Virus record (IMG/VR): IMGVR_UViG_3300031565_000052
Coordinates: 1-50,514 of that record
Length of the DNA: 50,514 bases
Strand: one strand, 5' to 3'
Source: a virus
In this document: one piece after another, positions 8,567 to 31,950 of the stretch
Layout of the letters: the number at the start of each line of letters is the position of its first letter
Numbering within the stretch: position 1 is the first letter of the stretch
Notes under the pieces: model-generated
What the model was told of the DNA's origin: nothing
The model's database searches: none
What the model saw: only the letters and a program-made list of their open reading frames with translations
Made by a program: the position numbers and the translations under genes

Positions 8567-8595
8567 AAAAAAACTCTCATTTGTGAGAGTTTTTT
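8567..8595 (-). terminator. Intrinsic terminator after clpC-like gene
   Basis: AAACTCTCA/TGAGAGTTT stem (arms near 8571-8579 and 8584-8592), with a T-run on the minus strand. It ends the clpC-like gene, whose stop is at 8605, and abuts the next candidate promoter. Confidence 0.8.
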
Positions 8596-8604
8596 CTAGA
8601 TTTA

Positions 8605-11088
8605 TTATTTTTTTAGTATTTTAGTGATGATACCATTTTTTTTAGTGTAAGAAAGGGTTATCGTCCAACCTTCTTTCAATTTACCATCCATAATAGCATC
8701 AGTTATAGGGTCTTCAACATATTTTTGAATAGCTCTCTTAAGAGGTCTAGCACCATACTCTTTATGATATCCTTCTGTTGCTATATAATCCATGGCCGTT
8801 TTATTAACCAATAATTTATAATTTAATTCAGATATACGCTCTTTAACTTCATTTATTTCATTTTTAATTATAATGTTTATATCATCTTGACTTAATGAAT
8901 TAAAGATAATCGTTTCATCAATCCTATTTAAAAATTCTGGTTTAAATTTATCTTTTAAAGCTTTTTTGATAATATCTTCGGCCCTATTCGCTTCATCAAT
9001 TATTGTATTTCTTGTCCCATAACCGATTCCAGTACCGAATTGAGATAATTCTTTAACACCGATGTTAGATGTCATAATAATAAGAGTATTTTTAAAATCT
9101 ACTTTCCTATCATTACTATCAGTTAAATGACCTTCATCTAATAATTGTAACAACAAATTGAATATATCATCGTGTGCTTTTTCGATTTCATCAAAAAGAA
9201 TTACAGAATAAGGTTTATGTCTTACCGCTTCAGTTAATTTTCCACCTTCACCATAACCAACATAACCTGGTGGTGCCCCAATTAATTTAGACATTGCGTG
9301 CTTTTCCATGTATTCAGACATATCAACTCTAATCAATGAATCAGTATCACCGAATACGTGTTCAGCCAATACTTTAGCTAGGTATGTTTTACCAACGCCA
9401 GTTGGACCTAAAAAGATAAACGAACCAATTGGTTTATGTTTACTTCTAATACCTAATCTACTTCTTCTAATGGCTTTAGAGACTTGCTTAACTACCTTAT
9501 CTTGTCCGATAACACTAACTTTTAAATCCTTTTCAAGATTTTTAAGAGTATTGTTTTCAGTGACCGTTAATTTGGTTAATGGGATTCCTGTCATAGTAGA
9601 CACCACACTTTCAACCATATCTTTAGTAATTATAGTTCTCTTTTTGTTGTTTTTTTCTTCCCACTTATACATTAAATCATCAACCTTTACTTCATATTCT
9701 TTACGTTTATCTCTTAACGTAGCCGCATCTTCGAAATCTTGTTTGTTGATTATTTCTTTCATTTGCTCTTTCAACTCTACGATTTTGGTTTTCAACTCTT
9801 TAATTTGGGTTGGAAGTTTAATGTCAATATTAGTTGATGCACCAGCTTCATCCAAAATATCTATGGCTTTATCTGGCATTGCTCTATCTGAAATATATCT
9901 ATCAGCTAATTTAACGATAACTTCAAGTACTAAATCGCTGTATTCTACATTATGGTAATTTTCGTAATTTGTTTTAATTTGCTCAAGAATATCAAGAGTT
10001 TCTATCAATGTAGGTTCTTTAATAATAACTTGTTGGAATCTTCTTGTAAGTGCGCCATCAGTTTCTATATTTTCTCTAAATTCGTCTAATGTTGTGGCAC
10101 CAATTACTTGTATTTCACCTCTCGCTAACGCTGGTTTGAATATGTTTGAAGCATCCAATGAGCCTGATGCGTTACCAGCACCTACAAGTGTATGTAACTC
10201 ATCGATAAATAATATTATTTCAGGGTTATCTTTTAATTCTGTAAGGATAACTTTCATTCTCTCTTCAAATTGTCCACGATATTTTGTTCCAGCTACAATT
10301 GAAGCTAAATCTAATGCGTATATCTTTTTACCTAATAATGGTCTTGGTGCATCCCCAGAGTTAATCAATATAGCTAAACCTTCAATTATGGACGTTTTCC
10401 CAACACCTGGTTCACCAATTAGGACTGGGTTATTTTTCTTACGTCTAGATAAGATTGCAGTTACTCTTTTAATTTCTTCGCTTCGACCAACTACTGGGTC
10501 AATTTTACCATCACTCGCTGCTTTAGATATATCTCTGCAAAAACCATCTAACGCTGGAGTTTTAGATGAATTATCTGTTTTTAATATTTTTCTTTTAGGA
10601 TTTAAAGGAATGTTATCAAAATCATCCGTTTTATCCGCATTTTCTGGGCCATTTGTTTCTGCCATAATTTTGTTTTTAAAAATTTTATAATTTAAGTTAA
10701 GTTTCACCAACATTTTTTGTCCAGCACATTTGGTGGTCAATAGAGCTAACATGATGTGTATTTCAGTTATTTTATCATCACCCATCATTTCACGTTCCCT
10801 TTTCATTTTTTCGATAAGGTATTTGGTTTCTTTGCTTGGTAATATTTCTGTATTGTTGATATAGGCTCTACTATTGTTTATAATGTTATTTGTTAAATGA
10901 ACACTCAACTCTTCAAATAAAGCATCAATATCAAAATGTAATTTTCGCAATGTTTTTACAATTATGTTATGTTCGTGTAATATTATGGCTAACAGAATGT
11001 GTTCTGGCCTAAATTTACTATCCTCATAATCCCTAGCTTGATAAATTGCTTGTTGCATCAGCTCTTTGGCTGTTAAAGTCATGTCCAT
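8605..11088 (-). CDS. ClpC-type AAA+ protein unfoldase
   Basis: Two AAA+ modules: Walker A 'GEPGVGKT' (about 225-232) with Walker B 'LFIDELH', and 'GPTGVGKT' (about 561-568) with 'ILFDEIEKAH'. A Clp-N domain begins the protein, and a UVR-like motif ('NKQDFEDAATLRDKR') lies between the modules, as in ClpC/MecB rather than ClpB, which has a long coiled-coil M domain. The frame is open to 11142, but those codons overlap the promoter at 11113-11142, so the start is placed at ATG 11088 (827 aa). ClpC-type proteins unfold substrates for ClpP or refold them. No ClpP is seen here, so it may recruit host ClpP or act alone. A terminator follows. Confidence 0.92.
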   Translation of the reverse strand: MDMTLTAKELMQQAIYQARDYEDSKFRPEHILLAIILHEHNIIVKTLRKLHFDIDALFEELSVHLTNNIINNSRAYINNTEILPSKETKYLIEKMKREREMMGDDKITEIHIMLALLTTKCAGQKMLVKLNLNYKIFKNKIMAETNGPENADKTDDFDNIPLNPKRKILKTDNSSKTPALDGFCRDISKAASDGKIDPVVGRSEEIKRVTAILSRRKKNNPVLIGEPGVGKTSIIEGLAILINSGDAPRPLLGKKIYALDLASIVAGTKYRGQFEERMKVILTELKDNPEIILFIDELHTLVGAGNASGSLDASNIFKPALARGEIQVIGATTLDEFRENIETDGALTRRFQQVIIKEPTLIETLDILEQIKTNYENYHNVEYSDLVLEVIVKLADRYISDRAMPDKAIDILDEAGASTNIDIKLPTQIKELKTKIVELKEQMKEIINKQDFEDAATLRDKRKEYEVKVDDLMYKWEEKNNKKRTIITKDMVESVVSTMTGIPLTKLTVTENNTLKNLEKDLKVSVIGQDKVVKQVSKAIRRSRLGIRSKHKPIGSFIFLGPTGVGKTYLAKVLAEHVFGDTDSLIRVDMSEYMEKHAMSKLIGAPPGYVGYGEGGKLTEAVRHKPYSVILFDEIEKAHDDIFNLLLQLLDEGHLTDSNDRKVDFKNTLIIMTSNIGVKELSQFGTGIGYGTRNTIIDEANRAEDIIKKALKDKFKPEFLNRIDETIIFNSLSQDDINIIIKNEINEVKERISELNYKLLVNKTAMDYIATEGYHKEYGARPLKRAIQKYVEDPITDAIMDGKLKEGWTITLSYTKKNGIITKILKK

Positions 11089-11112
11089 ATAATAATTACT
11101 TTCAAATCTATA

Positions 11113-11142
11113 CAAAGATACGCAAAATTTTTTAATAAACAA
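11113..11142 (-). promoter_or_regulatory. Host-type promoter of the clpC-like gene
   Basis: Minus strand TTG (11142-11140), a 19-base spacer and TATCTTTG (11120-11113), an exact TAnnTTTG, 24 bases before the ATG at 11088. It overlaps the shadow N-terminal extension of the frame. Confidence 0.7.
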
Positions 11143-13516: not shown

Positions 13517-14072
13517 TTACATTAATCATAGTGGAGGTTGCATTGGTGCCGATATGACTTGGGAAACCGAAGGGTTGAAATATGGAGTGGAAAGTATTTC
13601 ATATTCATTTCATAACCATATTCAATATTCTTATAACCAAAAAAAATTAAGTACAGCCGAATTAAAAGAAGGGTGGGAACATGTGATGATTGCTGAAAAA
13701 ACATTACAACGTAATTTCACTATAAAAGAATCTTTTTATGTAAGAAATTTGGTGTCAAGAAACTGGTTTCAAGTTAAAAACGCTGACGCAATTATGGCTG
13801 TAAGTGCATTTGAAGATGATTCTCATGTTCGAGTTAAAGGTGGTACTGGGTGGTCAGTTCAAATGGGTATAGATAATAAAAAACTTATTTATTTTTATGA
13901 CCAAGAACTTTGTAAATGGTATTGGTATGATTATAATATAGATAAATTTTCTGAATTGGGTGGAATCCCAAAACTAAAAGAAAACTTTGCTGGGATTGGT
14001 TCAGCAAAATTAAATGAAAATGGGGTTAAGGCAATTAAAGATGTATACGAAGCAAACTTAAAATATGAATAA
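13500..14072 (+). CDS. SLOG/Rossmann-like nucleotide-binding protein
   Basis: The frame is open from 13440, but the likely start is ATG 13500 or 13503, overlapping the upstream stop, because the conserved fold begins immediately: 'NHSGGCIGADMTWETEG' is the glycine-rich loop of SLOG-type (DprA/YspA-like) proteins. Further on, 'ADAIMAVSAFE' and 'VKGGTGWSVQMGIDNKKLIYFYD' form the second half of the nucleotide-binding site. SLOG proteins sense or process nucleotide-derived ligands. The specific ligand here is unknown, but the place directly before thymidylate synthase (overlap 8 bases) is suggestive of nucleotide metabolism. Confidence 0.7.
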   Translation: MMKKNNYINHSGGCIGADMTWETEGLKYGVESISYSFHNHIQYSYNQKKLSTAELKEGWEHVMIAEKTLQRNFTIKESFYVRNLVSRNWFQVKNADAIMAVSAFEDDSHVRVKGGTGWSVQMGIDNKKLIYFYDQELCKWYWYDYNIDKFSELGGIPKLKENFAGIGSAKLNENGVKAIKDVYEANLKYE

Positions 14073-15336
14073 ACTAGACGAACAATATATAATCTTACTT
14101 CAAGATATTATTGATAATGGGACTGAGAAAGTTACTAGAAATGGGGGAACCAAATCTGTATTCGGTAGACAAATAAGACATAATATGTCAGAAGGGTTTC
14201 CTTTATTAACCACCAAGAAAATGCCATTTAAAACAATAGCAACGGAATTATTATGGTTTTTAAATGGTGAAACGAACATCAAATGGTTACTAGACCGTGG
14301 ATGTAATATTTGGAATGGGGATTGTTACAAGAATTATTTGAATAAAATGAGTGAACACTATGCGAATGGTGGTGATATATTTGATAAAGAAGGGTTTATT
14401 TACAATATTAAAACCGATAATGAGTTTTCAGATAAGTGGGGAGAAATGGGCCCAATATACGGCAAACAATGGAGAGATTGGGATGAAGATACTAGTGGTA
14501 TTGACCAAATTAAAAACTTAATAGAACAACTTAAAACTAATCCAGATTCAAGACGTTTAATGGTTACTGCGTGGAATCCAACATATATACCACACATGGT
14601 TCTTCCACCTTGTCATTATGCATTCCAAGTTTATACAAGAGAGTTGAGTTTAGATGAAAGAAATGATTTACTATATAAAAAAATAGATGGAAATCATAAA
14701 AGAGAAGATTGTTTTAGCGACAAGGAATTTGAAAGAGAAACACTTCAAGACTGTAAAGCATTTAACATCCCAGCCAGAGCAATCTCACTAATGTGGAATC
14801 AACGTTCAGTAGACACATTTTTAGGTTTACCATTCAACATAGCTTCTTATGGGTTATTATTAGAAATAATTGCAAAAGAAGTTAATATGGTTCCTGATGA
14901 GTTAATTGGTAATCTTGGTGATACACATTTATATTTAAATCATATTAAACAAGCTACACAACAAATGGGTTCTGAAATAAGTGATAAACAGTTAAATGCG
15001 TTACTTAGAGAATTTGATGAAGAATCATTTGAAACATTTATTATCGCCAAAAAATTGAAGCAAGATGCTATAGCAAAGCAAGAGTATGAAAGGGCGGCTA
15101 CAGAAAGAGATATTGAAAGAGCGGCTAAAAAGAGATTGGCTGAAATAGACTTACCTTTACATGATAGGGTGCCATTTGAATTGCCGACATTAAAAATAAA
15201 GGCTTATACCGATAATGGTATGATTAAGCCTAAATTATTACCTGAAGAAGGTGACGAAGCTTTTTATGAAGTTAGTGATTTTATATTAGAAAATTATAAA
15301 TCACACCCACCAATTAAAGCACCCTTATCAAATTAA
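14065..15336 (+). CDS. thyA: Thymidylate synthase ThyA with two insertions
   Basis: Converts dUMP to dTMP using methylene-tetrahydrofolate. The ThyA core is complete: 'TELLWFLNGETNIKWL' (60-75), 'GPIYGKQWRDW' (129-139), the phosphate-binding 'SRRLMVTAWNP' with R163/R164, catalytic C183 in 'LPPCHYAFQVY', 'NQRSVDTFLGLPFNIASY' (245-262) and 'GDTHLYLNH' (285-293). At 423 residues it is far longer than the roughly 264 of E. coli. One insertion lies at about 192-238, and a second, helical one at about 299-364 contains a UVR-like stretch ('QEYERAATERDIERAAKKR'). It is the last gene of the plus-strand operon from 11201. Active-site conservation suggests a working enzyme supplying dTMP for phage DNA. 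Confidence 0.95.
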   Translation: MNKLDEQYIILLQDIIDNGTEKVTRNGGTKSVFGRQIRHNMSEGFPLLTTKKMPFKTIATELLWFLNGETNIKWLLDRGCNIWNGDCYKNYLNKMSEHYANGGDIFDKEGFIYNIKTDNEFSDKWGEMGPIYGKQWRDWDEDTSGIDQIKNLIEQLKTNPDSRRLMVTAWNPTYIPHMVLPPCHYAFQVYTRELSLDERNDLLYKKIDGNHKREDCFSDKEFERETLQDCKAFNIPARAISLMWNQRSVDTFLGLPFNIASYGLLLEIIAKEVNMVPDELIGNLGDTHLYLNHIKQATQQMGSEISDKQLNALLREFDEESFETFIIAKKLKQDAIAKQEYERAATERDIERAAKKRLAEIDLPLHDRVPFELPTLKIKAYTDNGMIKPKLLPEEGDEAFYEVSDFILENYKSHPPIKAPLSN

Positions 15337-15350
15337 AAAATCACTTATTC

Positions 15351-15361
15351 TATATTTATTA
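15351..15361 (+). promoter_or_regulatory. Candidate late promoter motif
   Basis: TATATTTATTA lies 14 bases before the ATG of the first tail-tube gene. It starts the structural block after the thyA operon. Confidence 0.6.
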
Positions 15362-15375
15362 TTAAATAAAGTTTT

Positions 15376-15897
15376 ATGAAAAATTCAGAAATAAATGATG
15401 GTAAGGATGTTATAACAACTGAAACTGAGGAAATATATACATTATCTGGTAAGTATAAAGCCATAACCAATATAACTAATAATGGGATACCAGTTACTCG
15501 TTTTGAACCTAAACGAAATAATAGATGGGTTTTAAACTTTGAAGGAAATTTTGAAAATATACCACCATGGGCAGTTAAAAAAACTCACCGACCAAAATTA
15601 ATAAATGGTTCATGGTCTAATATAAAAATAGTATTTTATGATTCAATTTGTCAATCAACAACTAATGCTATAGTTGAAGGGTTTAGAGCTAGTTGGCAAT
15701 TGAATAACCGAATCTCTAAAATACCGATTATTCATTATAAATTACAAATGCTTGACCCAACTGGGGTTGCTATTGAAGAGTGGGATATTAAGGGTGGAAT
15801 TATTGAAGCTGATTTTGGTAAATTGGATTTCGCTAAACCAAAATTAAGTGAAATTAAGTTGATTATAAAACCATCTAGTGTTATTTTAGTTTATTAA
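15376..15897 (+). CDS. Tail tube protein, T4 gp19-like (paralogue 1)
   Basis: Resembles the T4-type tail tube family: 'RWVLNFEGNFENIPPWAVKK' followed by 'RPKL', then 'SNIKIVFYDSI', and the hallmark 'LQMLDPTGVAIEEWDIKG', ending in an 'IKLIIKPSSVIL' strand. Tube proteins stack as hexamers inside the contractile sheath and carry DNA during ejection. It has a roughly 40-residue N-terminal extension before the tube core. The next gene encodes a second copy, with its own candidate promoter. The family call is strong; which of the two is the main tube protein is unknown. Confidence 0.85.
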   Translation: MKNSEINDGKDVITTETEEIYTLSGKYKAITNITNNGIPVTRFEPKRNNRWVLNFEGNFENIPPWAVKKTHRPKLINGSWSNIKIVFYDSICQSTTNAIVEGFRASWQLNNRISKIPIIHYKLQMLDPTGVAIEEWDIKGGIIEADFGKLDFAKPKLSEIKLIIKPSSVILVY

Positions 15898-15902
15898 TAA
15901 AA

Positions 15903-15952
15903 AATTCGCTCATAGCATATTTATTATTAAATAAATGTTTTATGAGCGAATT
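15903..15952 (+). promoter_or_regulatory. 12-bp inverted repeat sequestering a start codon
   Basis: AATTCGCTCATA (15903-15914) is perfectly complementary to TATGAGCGAATT (15941-15952). The right arm contains the ATG (15942) of the second tail-tube gene. The 26-base loop holds the candidate late promoter, so only read-through transcripts would contain both arms. Confidence 0.7.
15916..15926 (+). promoter_or_regulatory. Candidate late promoter motif inside hairpin loop
   Basis: CATATTTATTA lies 15 bases before the ATG at 15942. Transcripts started just downstream would lack the left arm of the inverted repeat. Confidence 0.55.
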
Positions 15953-16409
15953 ACTATTAAAAATGCCAGTACCTTACGAGGTGAAATTAACCAATAGATG
16001 GTTAATTAGATTTAAAGGTGATTATAAAGATATACCTAGTTGGGTACTTTCTAAAACGTCTAGACCTAAATGGGAAGCTACTGAATCAACTAAAGAAATT
16101 AATAATGCTAATAGTTGGGGTATTAAGGGTGGTTGGTCTAATATTGAAATTTATTTACGTGACCCAATTTTAGCCAATTCAACAGCTAAAGTTTTAATGA
16201 CTGCCGCTAGGATAGCTGGGTTAACTTCGGCTAAAAATAAGATTAAATATGATTTAGAATTATTAGACCCATGTGGGGTTGTTATTGAAAAATGGAAAAT
16301 AAAAGGGTTAGTTGAACTATTTGATTTTGGCCCATTGGATTATGCAAAAGATGATTTAGTAGAAATAAAATTGGTAATTAAACCTACAAAGGTTAAATTA
16401 TGTTTCTAA
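15942..16409 (+). CDS. Tail tube protein, T4 gp19-like (paralogue 2)
   Basis: A 155-residue relative of the preceding gene: 'RWLIRFKGDYKDIPSWVLSK' then 'RPKW', 'WSNIEIYLRDPI', 'LELLDPCGVVIEKWKIKG' and a closing 'IKLVIKPTKVKL'. It lacks the N-terminal extension of paralogue 1 but has a short insert after 'RPKWEATES'. Both copies keep the fold-defining segments, so neither looks decayed. Its start codon lies in the right arm of an inverted repeat (15903-15952), suggesting that translation is allowed only from its own late transcript. A role in the tail tube or at its end is likely. Confidence 0.85.
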   Translation: MSELLLKMPVPYEVKLTNRWLIRFKGDYKDIPSWVLSKTSRPKWEATESTKEINNANSWGIKGGWSNIEIYLRDPILANSTAKVLMTAARIAGLTSAKNKIKYDLELLDPCGVVIEKWKIKGLVELFDFGPLDYAKDDLVEIKLVIKPTKVKLCF

Positions 16410-16444
16410 AATCATATAAAAACAAGTTTTTTTGTAATTTTTAC

Positions 16445-16455
16445 TATATTTATAT
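16445..16455 (+). promoter_or_regulatory. Candidate late promoter motif
   Basis: TATATTTATAT lies 15 bases before the ATG at 16471. An upstream ACAAG plus T-run is also present. Confidence 0.55.
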
Positions 16456-16470
16456 AATAAAAGATACAAT

Positions 16471-16701
16471 ATGAATATAATGAATAATGTTATTCATGCG
16501 TCTGCGTTAGCAGACTTGAGTGGCTACACATATACAGAGGTATATGCTGGGGCACTTGCAAGTCCAATAATTAATGGTACGACTGTAGCTATGGCTGCTG
16601 GTCACACTATTAAGATTCTTGTACAATCTATTTCTAGTACAGCTAATGTATATGTATTGGGATATAAAAAAGTAAATACACCTACGGTGATAAACGGATA
16701 A
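16471..16701 (+). CDS. Small structural protein, 76 aa
   Basis: A 76-residue Ala/Thr/Ser-rich beta protein with 'TEVYAGALASPIINGTTVAM' and 'SISSTANVYVLGYK'. This pattern is one I associate with small virion proteins of large marine-type phages, though I cannot name the family. It lacks charged helices and membrane segments. It has its own candidate late promoter and sits within the virion gene block. Decoration or minor capsid function is inference. Confidence 0.7.
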   Translation: MNIMNNVIHASALADLSGYTYTEVYAGALASPIINGTTVAMAAGHTIKILVQSISSTANVYVLGYKKVNTPTVING

Positions 16702-16717
16702 ATAAATTAATAGTTAA

Positions 16718-17440
16718 ATGAAAAATAATAATAATAATATTAAACCAGTTGGTTTAAAAGGTAATGACCAAGTTAGCAGAATGCGTTCATTGATGGGAGT
16801 AAGTCCTATTCATGAAAACACAAAAACATCAGTTGTTGAACTAACTAAAATGGGTCCAGATGGTAAAGTTTATGGTATCGTTAGAGAAAATCATAAATAT
16901 TTTATTAAAATAACTAATAAAAAACAAAATTTAGTTGCTGAAGATTTCATGTATATTGGTGGTTTGAAAAACAAAACTGAAAAAGTTTATAATAGTTATT
17001 CTCAAGCTACTAAACAATTAAACCTTAAATTTTTAAGTCTTAATGAAGCATTAGGTAAAACTGAAGCTATCAACGTATTAAAAAACGATAATTTATTAGC
17101 AGAACAATTTGATTCTTACCCAGAAAATCCAAAACCAAGTCAACCAGATAAAACATTAGGTACCGTTAAAGAAATGGGAAAAAATGATGGCCATGAAAAA
17201 GAAATCATTGGTGATGAAGGTGAAGAAGGAAATCCAGATGTAGATACTCCACCAGTTGTAGAAGAAAACGAAGAAGTAACTGAAGAAAACGAAGTAGAAT
17301 TAACTGAAAGTGAAATCGCAATAGACAATATTATCCGTGAATTAAGAGGTGAAACATTAACTGAAGACCAAAAACTTAGTATTACCACAGCTATTAGTAA
17401 AATTAGAGAAGGAGAAAACAGTTCAAAAAAAAAAGTGTAA
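16718..17440 (+). CDS. Acidic structural protein, upstream part of a possible frameshifted gene
   Basis: A 240-residue protein with an Asn run at the N-terminus, 'QVSRMRSLMGVSPIHE' (residues 19-34), a compact middle region, and a long acidic, Pro/Glu-rich linker after about 130. It ends 'SSKKKV' at an A10 run (17425-17434). A -1 shift there removes the stop and continues through 'SVTETKFKLKLDNPSPEP' into the frame of the next gene, which has no good start of its own. The fused product would be about 675 residues. Location between tail-tube genes and terminase suggests a virion protein; function is unknown. Confidence 0.75.
   Translation: MKNNNNNIKPVGLKGNDQVSRMRSLMGVSPIHENTKTSVVELTKMGPDGKVYGIVRENHKYFIKITNKKQNLVAEDFMYIGGLKNKTEKVYNSYSQATKQLNLKFLSLNEALGKTEAINVLKNDNLLAEQFDSYPENPKPSQPDKTLGTVKEMGKNDGHEKEIIGDEGEEGNPDVDTPPVVEENEEVTEENEVELTESEIAIDNIIRELRGETLTEDQKLSITTAISKIREGENSSKKKV
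17425..17434 (+). other. A10 tract, candidate -1 frameshift or slippage site
   Basis: Ten consecutive A followed by GTGTAA. One extra base (or -1 slippage) fuses the 16718 frame to the frame containing 17500-18744. This is the same arrangement as at 3026-3035. Confidence 0.55.
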
Positions 17441-31887: not shown

Positions 31888-31920
31888 TATACCTTCTTAC
31901 TCGTTTCGAGATAATACCAA

Positions 31921-31950
31921 AAAGCCTCAGATTTATTCTGAGGCTTTTTT
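31921..31950. terminator. Bidirectional terminator after capsid gene
   Basis: AAAGCCTCAGA/TCTGAGGCTTT stem with a T6 tail on the plus strand and an A-run on the other side. It separates the convergent capsid and 31955 genes and can serve both strands. Confidence 0.9.

Follow-up and report, generated by a model that had tools for sequence, protein, structure and literature searches.

A hairpin enclosing a candidate promoter covers the start codon of a tail-tube paralogue: a predicted late-translation gate in a T4-like phage without Shine-Dalgarno sites

The window, i.e. the whole stretch of DNA considered here, corresponds to IMG/VR record IMGVR_UViG_3300031565_000052 and comprises 50.5 kb with 31% G+C. 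Co-directional genes run from 11201 through thyA and are followed by two genes related to tail tubes, designated tube1 and tube2. The start codon of tube2 lies in one arm of an inverted repeat, and the elements of this region are as follows:

14065-15336, + strand: thyA, thymidylate synthase, end of the co-directional gene run (Pfam PF00303, E 5.4e-83)
15352-15359, + strand: candidate late promoter of tube1, ATATTTAT
15376-15897, + strand: tube1, tail-tube paralogue, 173 aa (PHROG 4542, E 9.6e-8)
15894-15899/15955-15960, + strand: outer extension of the RNA fold, 6 bp, taking in the tube1 stop codon at 15895-15897
15903-15914, + strand: left arm of the outer perfect 12-bp stem, AATTCGCTCATA, noncoding, immediately 3' of tube1
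15915-15940: loop of the outer 12-bp stem, enclosing the candidate promoter
15916-15926, + strand: candidate late promoter of tube2, CATATTTATTA, with core ATATTTAT at 15917-15924 (positional enrichment in relatives)
15917-15925/15930-15938, + strand: inner stem-loop of the RNA fold, 9 bp, loop 15926-15929
15941-15952, + strand: right arm, TATGAGCGAATT, spanning the tube2 start codon and codons 2-4 (M S E L)
15942-16409, + strand: tube2, tail-tube paralogue, 155 aa, the putatively gated gene (PHROG 4542 tail tube, E 1.9e-7)

Besides its PHROG match, tube2 displayed 30% identity to the annotated tail tube of Microcystis phage Mel-JY01. The two genes had been presented in a preliminary description as the first and second tube gene; both do match PHROG 4542, but the label misleads. 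In L014, the nearest large relative, a better-matching tube gene (PHROG 4542, E 1.7e-29) comes next after the sheath gene (PHROG 23), near 100 kb and about 75 kb away from tube2, whereas the window copies are located between thyA and a 76-aa gene and not beside a sheath gene. Because of their weaker matches, and of the better tube behind the distant sheath gene of L014, tube1 and tube2 are probably divergent paralogues; the main tube gene is expected outside the window fragment. A terminator-like hairpin precedes the sheath-linked tube of the L014 phage (L262:1430-1463), its 3' arm running into the promoter (CACATATTTATA). A tube1-like frame at L011:4768-5166 (also in L007, L009 and L013) has no ATG, GTG or TTG start and overlaps an upstream ORF in another frame, as a truncated remnant or a frameshift fusion would. 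Elsewhere in the window, the minus strand of 8605-11142 encodes an 845-aa Clp-type AAA+ ATPase with an N-terminal Clp domain and a UVR motif, an unusual cargo for a T4-like phage fragment. A 38-nt match of thyA to a Flavobacterium phage and a terminase with best coverage in Flavobacterium phages (27% identity) are hints at the host.

Across 1003 gene starts of the window and of contigs related to it, the heptamer TATTTAT peaked at -30 to -16 before the ATG (199 hits in three 5-nt bins), with an A just before it and AAA 11-13 nt past its first T; ATAAATA was only weakly enriched before the same starts. Among some 55 distinct relatives listed, most displayed the motif ahead of the tube gene, and at tube2 it stands at the usual distance from the ATG. 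The candidate late promoter proposed earlier for the loop was supported by the positioning of the motif 15-30 nt before starts in relatives, but its sequence is ATATTTAT and not the T4 late consensus TATAAATA. In Flavobacterium johnsoniae, the -7 element is TAnnTTTG and transcription starts 4-5 nt downstream of it (PMC6847099); borrowing this spacing by analogy, transcription of tube2 would start near 15928, or more broadly at about 15928-15932. The TATATTTA of the tube1 promoter fits TAnnTTT. Unlike the Bacteroidetes element, however, the phage motif ends in A instead of a nearly invariant G, displays no visible -33 element and is tightly linked to phage structural genes; it is probably read by a phage sigma factor. 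A gp55-like ORF was found in relatives by a weak match to PHROG 234 (E 4.9e-4), with a sub-threshold Pfam match to sigma-70 region 2, and a homologue 46% identical to it occurs in the 197-kb record of L014. PHROG 12791 (late sigma) matched nothing anywhere, the controls included, and this search was hence uninformative. Shine-Dalgarno-like 4-mers were encountered in one of 57 window leaders, against one in the control stretch, and 33 of the 57 displayed an A at -3. This near-absence of Shine-Dalgarno sites and frequent A at -3 resemble Bacteroidetes, in which start-region structure tunes initiation (PMC6847099).

The perfect 12-nt arms, the ATG at 15942 under the right arm and the motif CATATTTATTA in the loop were all confirmed at the positions first given, while the strength of the hairpin had been understated. 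RNA of 15893-15972 folded into 13 bp, a 1x1 C-U mismatch, 9 bp and a 4-nt loop, plus the 6 outer pairs; counting G-U, 22 of the 23 positions of arms 15903-15925 and 15930-15952 pair. Its free energy was -24.1 kcal/mol, as compared to -7.15 +/- 2.66 for shuffled sequences (z -6.4; none of 200 shuffles as good), and was calculated to be even stronger at 10-30 C. The inner 9 bp follow mostly from the promoter block being palindromic; what sets the hairpin apart are the outer 12 bp. Perfect inverted repeats with arms of 12 bp or longer and loops of at most 40 nt numbered three in the window, against 0.4 in shuffles; with at least four G-C pairs required, the shuffle expectation was 0.125 per window. 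The other two (31919-31949 and 8568-8595) display short loops and T-runs and are probably terminators, the latter overlapping the start of a minus-strand ORF. When the upstream 60 nt were shuffled alone, a stem of at least 12 bp appeared in 6 of 3000 trials. A 12-bp stem covered the start at three of 488 ATG starts from the window and its relatives, and only at tube2 did it have a long, promoter-holding loop. The single match obtained in an Rfam search was sub-threshold and irrelevant.

Accessibility was expressed as an opening cost, the free energy for holding -10 to +6 around the start unpaired. For tube2, it amounted to about 19 kcal/mol (18.98) on read-through RNA and to only 1.6-1.8 kcal/mol for any transcript start from 15924 to 15936; starts beyond about 15912 were calculated to leave the start codon open, and RNA begun at 15931 was predicted to be essentially unfolded. 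Folding of both transcripts, the check proposed in the preliminary description, thus closed the AUG on the long RNA and opened it on the loop-started one. Replacement of the left flank by 220 flanks of other late-promoter genes yielded at most 12.7 kcal/mol, against 18.98 with tube2's own. The tube1 start was not sequestered (z -0.5).

Phage T4 provides the closest precedents. In its genes e, soc, 49 and I-TevI, expression from long transcripts is inhibited, the effect on lysozyme synthesis being about 100-fold (PMC3014915), and T4-type endonuclease genes lie inside early or middle units with a late promoter sited such that the inhibitory helix is missing from late RNA (PMC2988022). By the same opening-cost measure, gene e dropped from 15.0 to 3.9 or 1.2, gene 49 from 11.9 to 3.2 and I-TevII from 11.9 to 0.5 kcal/mol, most other (ungated) T4 genes tested lying at 2-6, with the exception of gene 55 (12.5). 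The drop from 19 to 1.8 calculated for tube2 is of the same kind as in gene e, where the start region is held in a helix on read-through RNA and the late promoter's RNA lacks the 5' arm; tube2 is predicted to behave alike. The analogy with gene e drawn earlier was sustained by this score but not by the signals involved: gene e hides a Shine-Dalgarno site and uses TATAAATA, whereas tube2 has no Shine-Dalgarno site to hide, holds the AUG itself in the stem and carries ATATTTAT. Because of this motif, the tube2 site would work like a T4 gate without being classed with the T4 promoter. Gene e is moreover a lysis gene with an experimentally proven gate, while the gate of a tail-tube paralogue is here predicted from sequence. 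In the hairpins of I-TevI, I-TevII, I-TevIII, segB and mobE, the late promoter is likewise sited so that late RNA escapes the helix; tube2 differs from these in being a virion-type gene, with no intron or endonuclease at the site, although relatives L107, L108 and L122 possess endonuclease-like genes arranged in this way.

The same layout was encountered on other genes of the clade. Late-promoter genes were grouped into 43 families by BLASTP, and left flanks were swapped between families. The mean opening cost displayed no rise across these 43 families (4.33 vs 4.12 +/- 0.27 permuted); the extreme tail was in excess, with 2.25 families above 10 kcal/mol vs 0.52 and 1.08 above 12 vs 0.13. In the prohead core protease (Peptidase S77), a helix of 11 bp encloses the promoter immediately before the ATG at 15 loci (12 distinct). 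Its cells were paired at 97%, a value reached by none of 500 shuffles and compared with 14-71% in slid controls, and in two of its pairs both partners had changed (U-A/C-G; A-U/G-U/G-C, the latter including the wobble intermediate). With 80 loci added, 74 distinct upstream regions of the protease displayed a mean opening cost of 7.84 vs 5.16 permuted (sd 0.26), and 26 of the 74 exceeded 10 kcal/mol vs 5-11 permuted, but the permutations ignore relatedness, so that their spread is too narrow and the contrast inflated. Other protease helices were formed by TCGACATAG/CTATGTCGA over the AUG in L039 and L311, TAACATAG/CTATGTTA in L281, TTTATATCCAT/ATGGATATAAA in L309 and CATTCAAA/TTTGAATG within the first codons in L342; these helices are unrelated, with the promoter always in the loop. 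The window's own protease start was moderately closed (9.4 kcal/mol).

HNH-type endonuclease genes displayed stems of about 8-10 bp, again with the promoter in the loop (10 bp in L108). Upstream of endonuclease-like genes at L108:6507-6586 and in L122 and L107, the promoter-holding hairpin is followed by a T-run and then the ATG; such a hairpin could both end RNA arriving from upstream and provide the start for the gene itself. A GCCTTTT/AAAAGGC pair surrounds the promoter at the terminase large subunit starts L030:318 and L029:337 (GCTTTTT in L029 being a G-U variant), which makes this subunit a possible further gated gene. The hairpin of L079 (z -1.5) was not counted as support, nor was the fold of L102, whose stretch stops short of the start codon. 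IMG/VR hits to GCTCAT..ATATTTAT..ATGAGC (33, vs 4 with a scrambled arm) were discarded, most of them lying at no real gene start and several being copies of one sequence.

We consider it probable, at about 0.68, that the tube2 hairpin gates late translation in the manner of T4 gene e, in a phage lacking Shine-Dalgarno sites. RNA arriving from upstream, started in the thyA run or at the tube1 promoter, would carry both arms, fold into the 13+9-bp hairpin and hide the tube2 AUG. Such read-through into tube2 is expected, since the + strand between thyA and tube2 yielded no match to a terminator pattern; the thyA gene run is its likely source at early or middle times. Late, a phage-modified RNA polymerase would initiate in the loop at ATATTTAT, and the resulting RNA, with a leader of 10-14 nt and no left arm, would be freely translated. 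As tube2 starts inside a hairpin that holds its own candidate promoter, only loop-promoter messages should be translated; production of tube2 would then require its own late promoter to fire, tube1 being ungated. The start site, the late timing, the repression and the benefit of a gate at tube2 are all put forward as predictions. A timing switch is likely because the same layout recurs on the assembly-protease genes of related phages. Against a gate stands that tube1, equally downstream of thyA, is ungated.

Ribosomes leaving tube1 offer another, rather improbable explanation, translational coupling, by which tube2 would be blocked on the two-gene mRNA unless these ribosomes invade the left arm, the loop promoter being secondary. 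The tube1 stop codon indeed sits 5 nt before the left arm, within the outer helix, and masking the RNA to 15907, 15909 or 15911 cut the opening cost to 13.3, 7.3 or 3.4 kcal/mol, a ribosome reaching 15907-15909 from this stop accounting for the first two values. However, a promoter in the loop is the element common to the prohead protease and endonuclease cases, and the tube2 motif keeps its usual distance from the ATG. For a late-translation gate, the same ribosomes imply a refinement. The earlier claim that read-through RNA is blocked and loop-started RNA free held in silico (about 19 vs less than 2 kcal/mol), but on read-through mRNA that is being translated the block probably leaks, because a ribosome finishing tube1 covers part of the left arm. 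Coupling from ribosomes at the tube1 stop may either add to the gate or weaken it.

Searches with tube2 and tube1 uncovered only two further tube2 loci, one in the near-identical strain L006 and the other in L014, the closest diverged orthologue (77% by alignment), in which thyA directly precedes tube2. L014 retains the promoter along with most of the right arm, displays TTGGATATTA where the left arm would be, and has no 12-bp stem: its best enclosing stem consists of 6 A-T pairs, and its opening cost goes from 7.1 to 2.9. The tube2 stem was thus seen in only two near-identical genomes, and, as the sole diverged orthologue has no left arm, it is documented in one lineage only; the gate would either have arisen recently in the lineage of the window or have disappeared from L014. 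Loss of arm complementarity in relatives, named beforehand as an outcome that would speak against the hairpin, was therefore found in part, and the compensatory arm changes that were to be sought in relatives appeared on the prohead protease but not at tube2, where the pairing is not kept in L014. L014, too, uses the AGC serine codon found in the right arm; this codon therefore probably predates or outlived the stem.

The intergenic cassettes thyA-tube1, tube1-tube2 and L014 thyA-tube2 are homologous: AAAAAAT(T), promoter and leader are common to all three, and their main difference is a stretch of some 9 nt that is complementary to the start only in the window. This pattern is compatible with an origin of the arm in a single strand-switch event, whatever its present function. 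Strand switching at the near-palindromic promoter block could even be the whole story, having copied the inverse of the start region upstream and left a functionless arm, a neutral product which the self-complementary inner block and the lack of a stem in L014 would suit. We regard this as no more probable than coupling: the compensatory changes of the protease and the repeated, independent helices show that selection can keep such stems in this clade, and the tube2 stem equals or exceeds in strength the T4 regulatory stems tested.

A role in DNA or transcription appears very improbable, be it as a binding site over the promoter for a dimeric regulator, which would recognise the inverted repeat, or as a minus-strand terminator. 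The repeat does flank the promoter symmetrically, but hairpins at other late promoters have no common arm sequence, which a shared regulator would need. The minus strand reads ...GCGAATTTTTTATT, a stem followed by TTTTTT, and folds at -21.5 kcal/mol; a long, mostly A-U stem is nevertheless atypical of terminators, and no minus-strand ORF of at least 60 aa is listed from 14600 to 17140. Mere chance in an A+T-rich genome is the least credible explanation of all, for although about 0.2% of shuffled versions of this leader gain a stem of 12 bp or longer and leaders are numerous, only 0.125 repeats with at least four G-C pairs are expected in the window, this one lies exactly over a start codon with a promoter enclosed, and none of the 200 shuffles or 220 flank swaps attained the tube2 value.

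Within this clade of T4-like phages without Shine-Dalgarno sites, promoter-in-loop start hairpins might represent a general and repeatedly re-evolved timer of assembly genes (prohead protease, terminase, tube paralogues) and endonucleases, with selection acting on the layout and not on the arm sequence; this wider proposal is tentative and is held at somewhat less than even odds. If the gate at tube2 is real, the lysozyme-type gate of T4 would extend to uncultured phages without Shine-Dalgarno sites and to virion assembly genes. Translation would then be timed by the choice of message start, through a pairing predictable from sequence alone.
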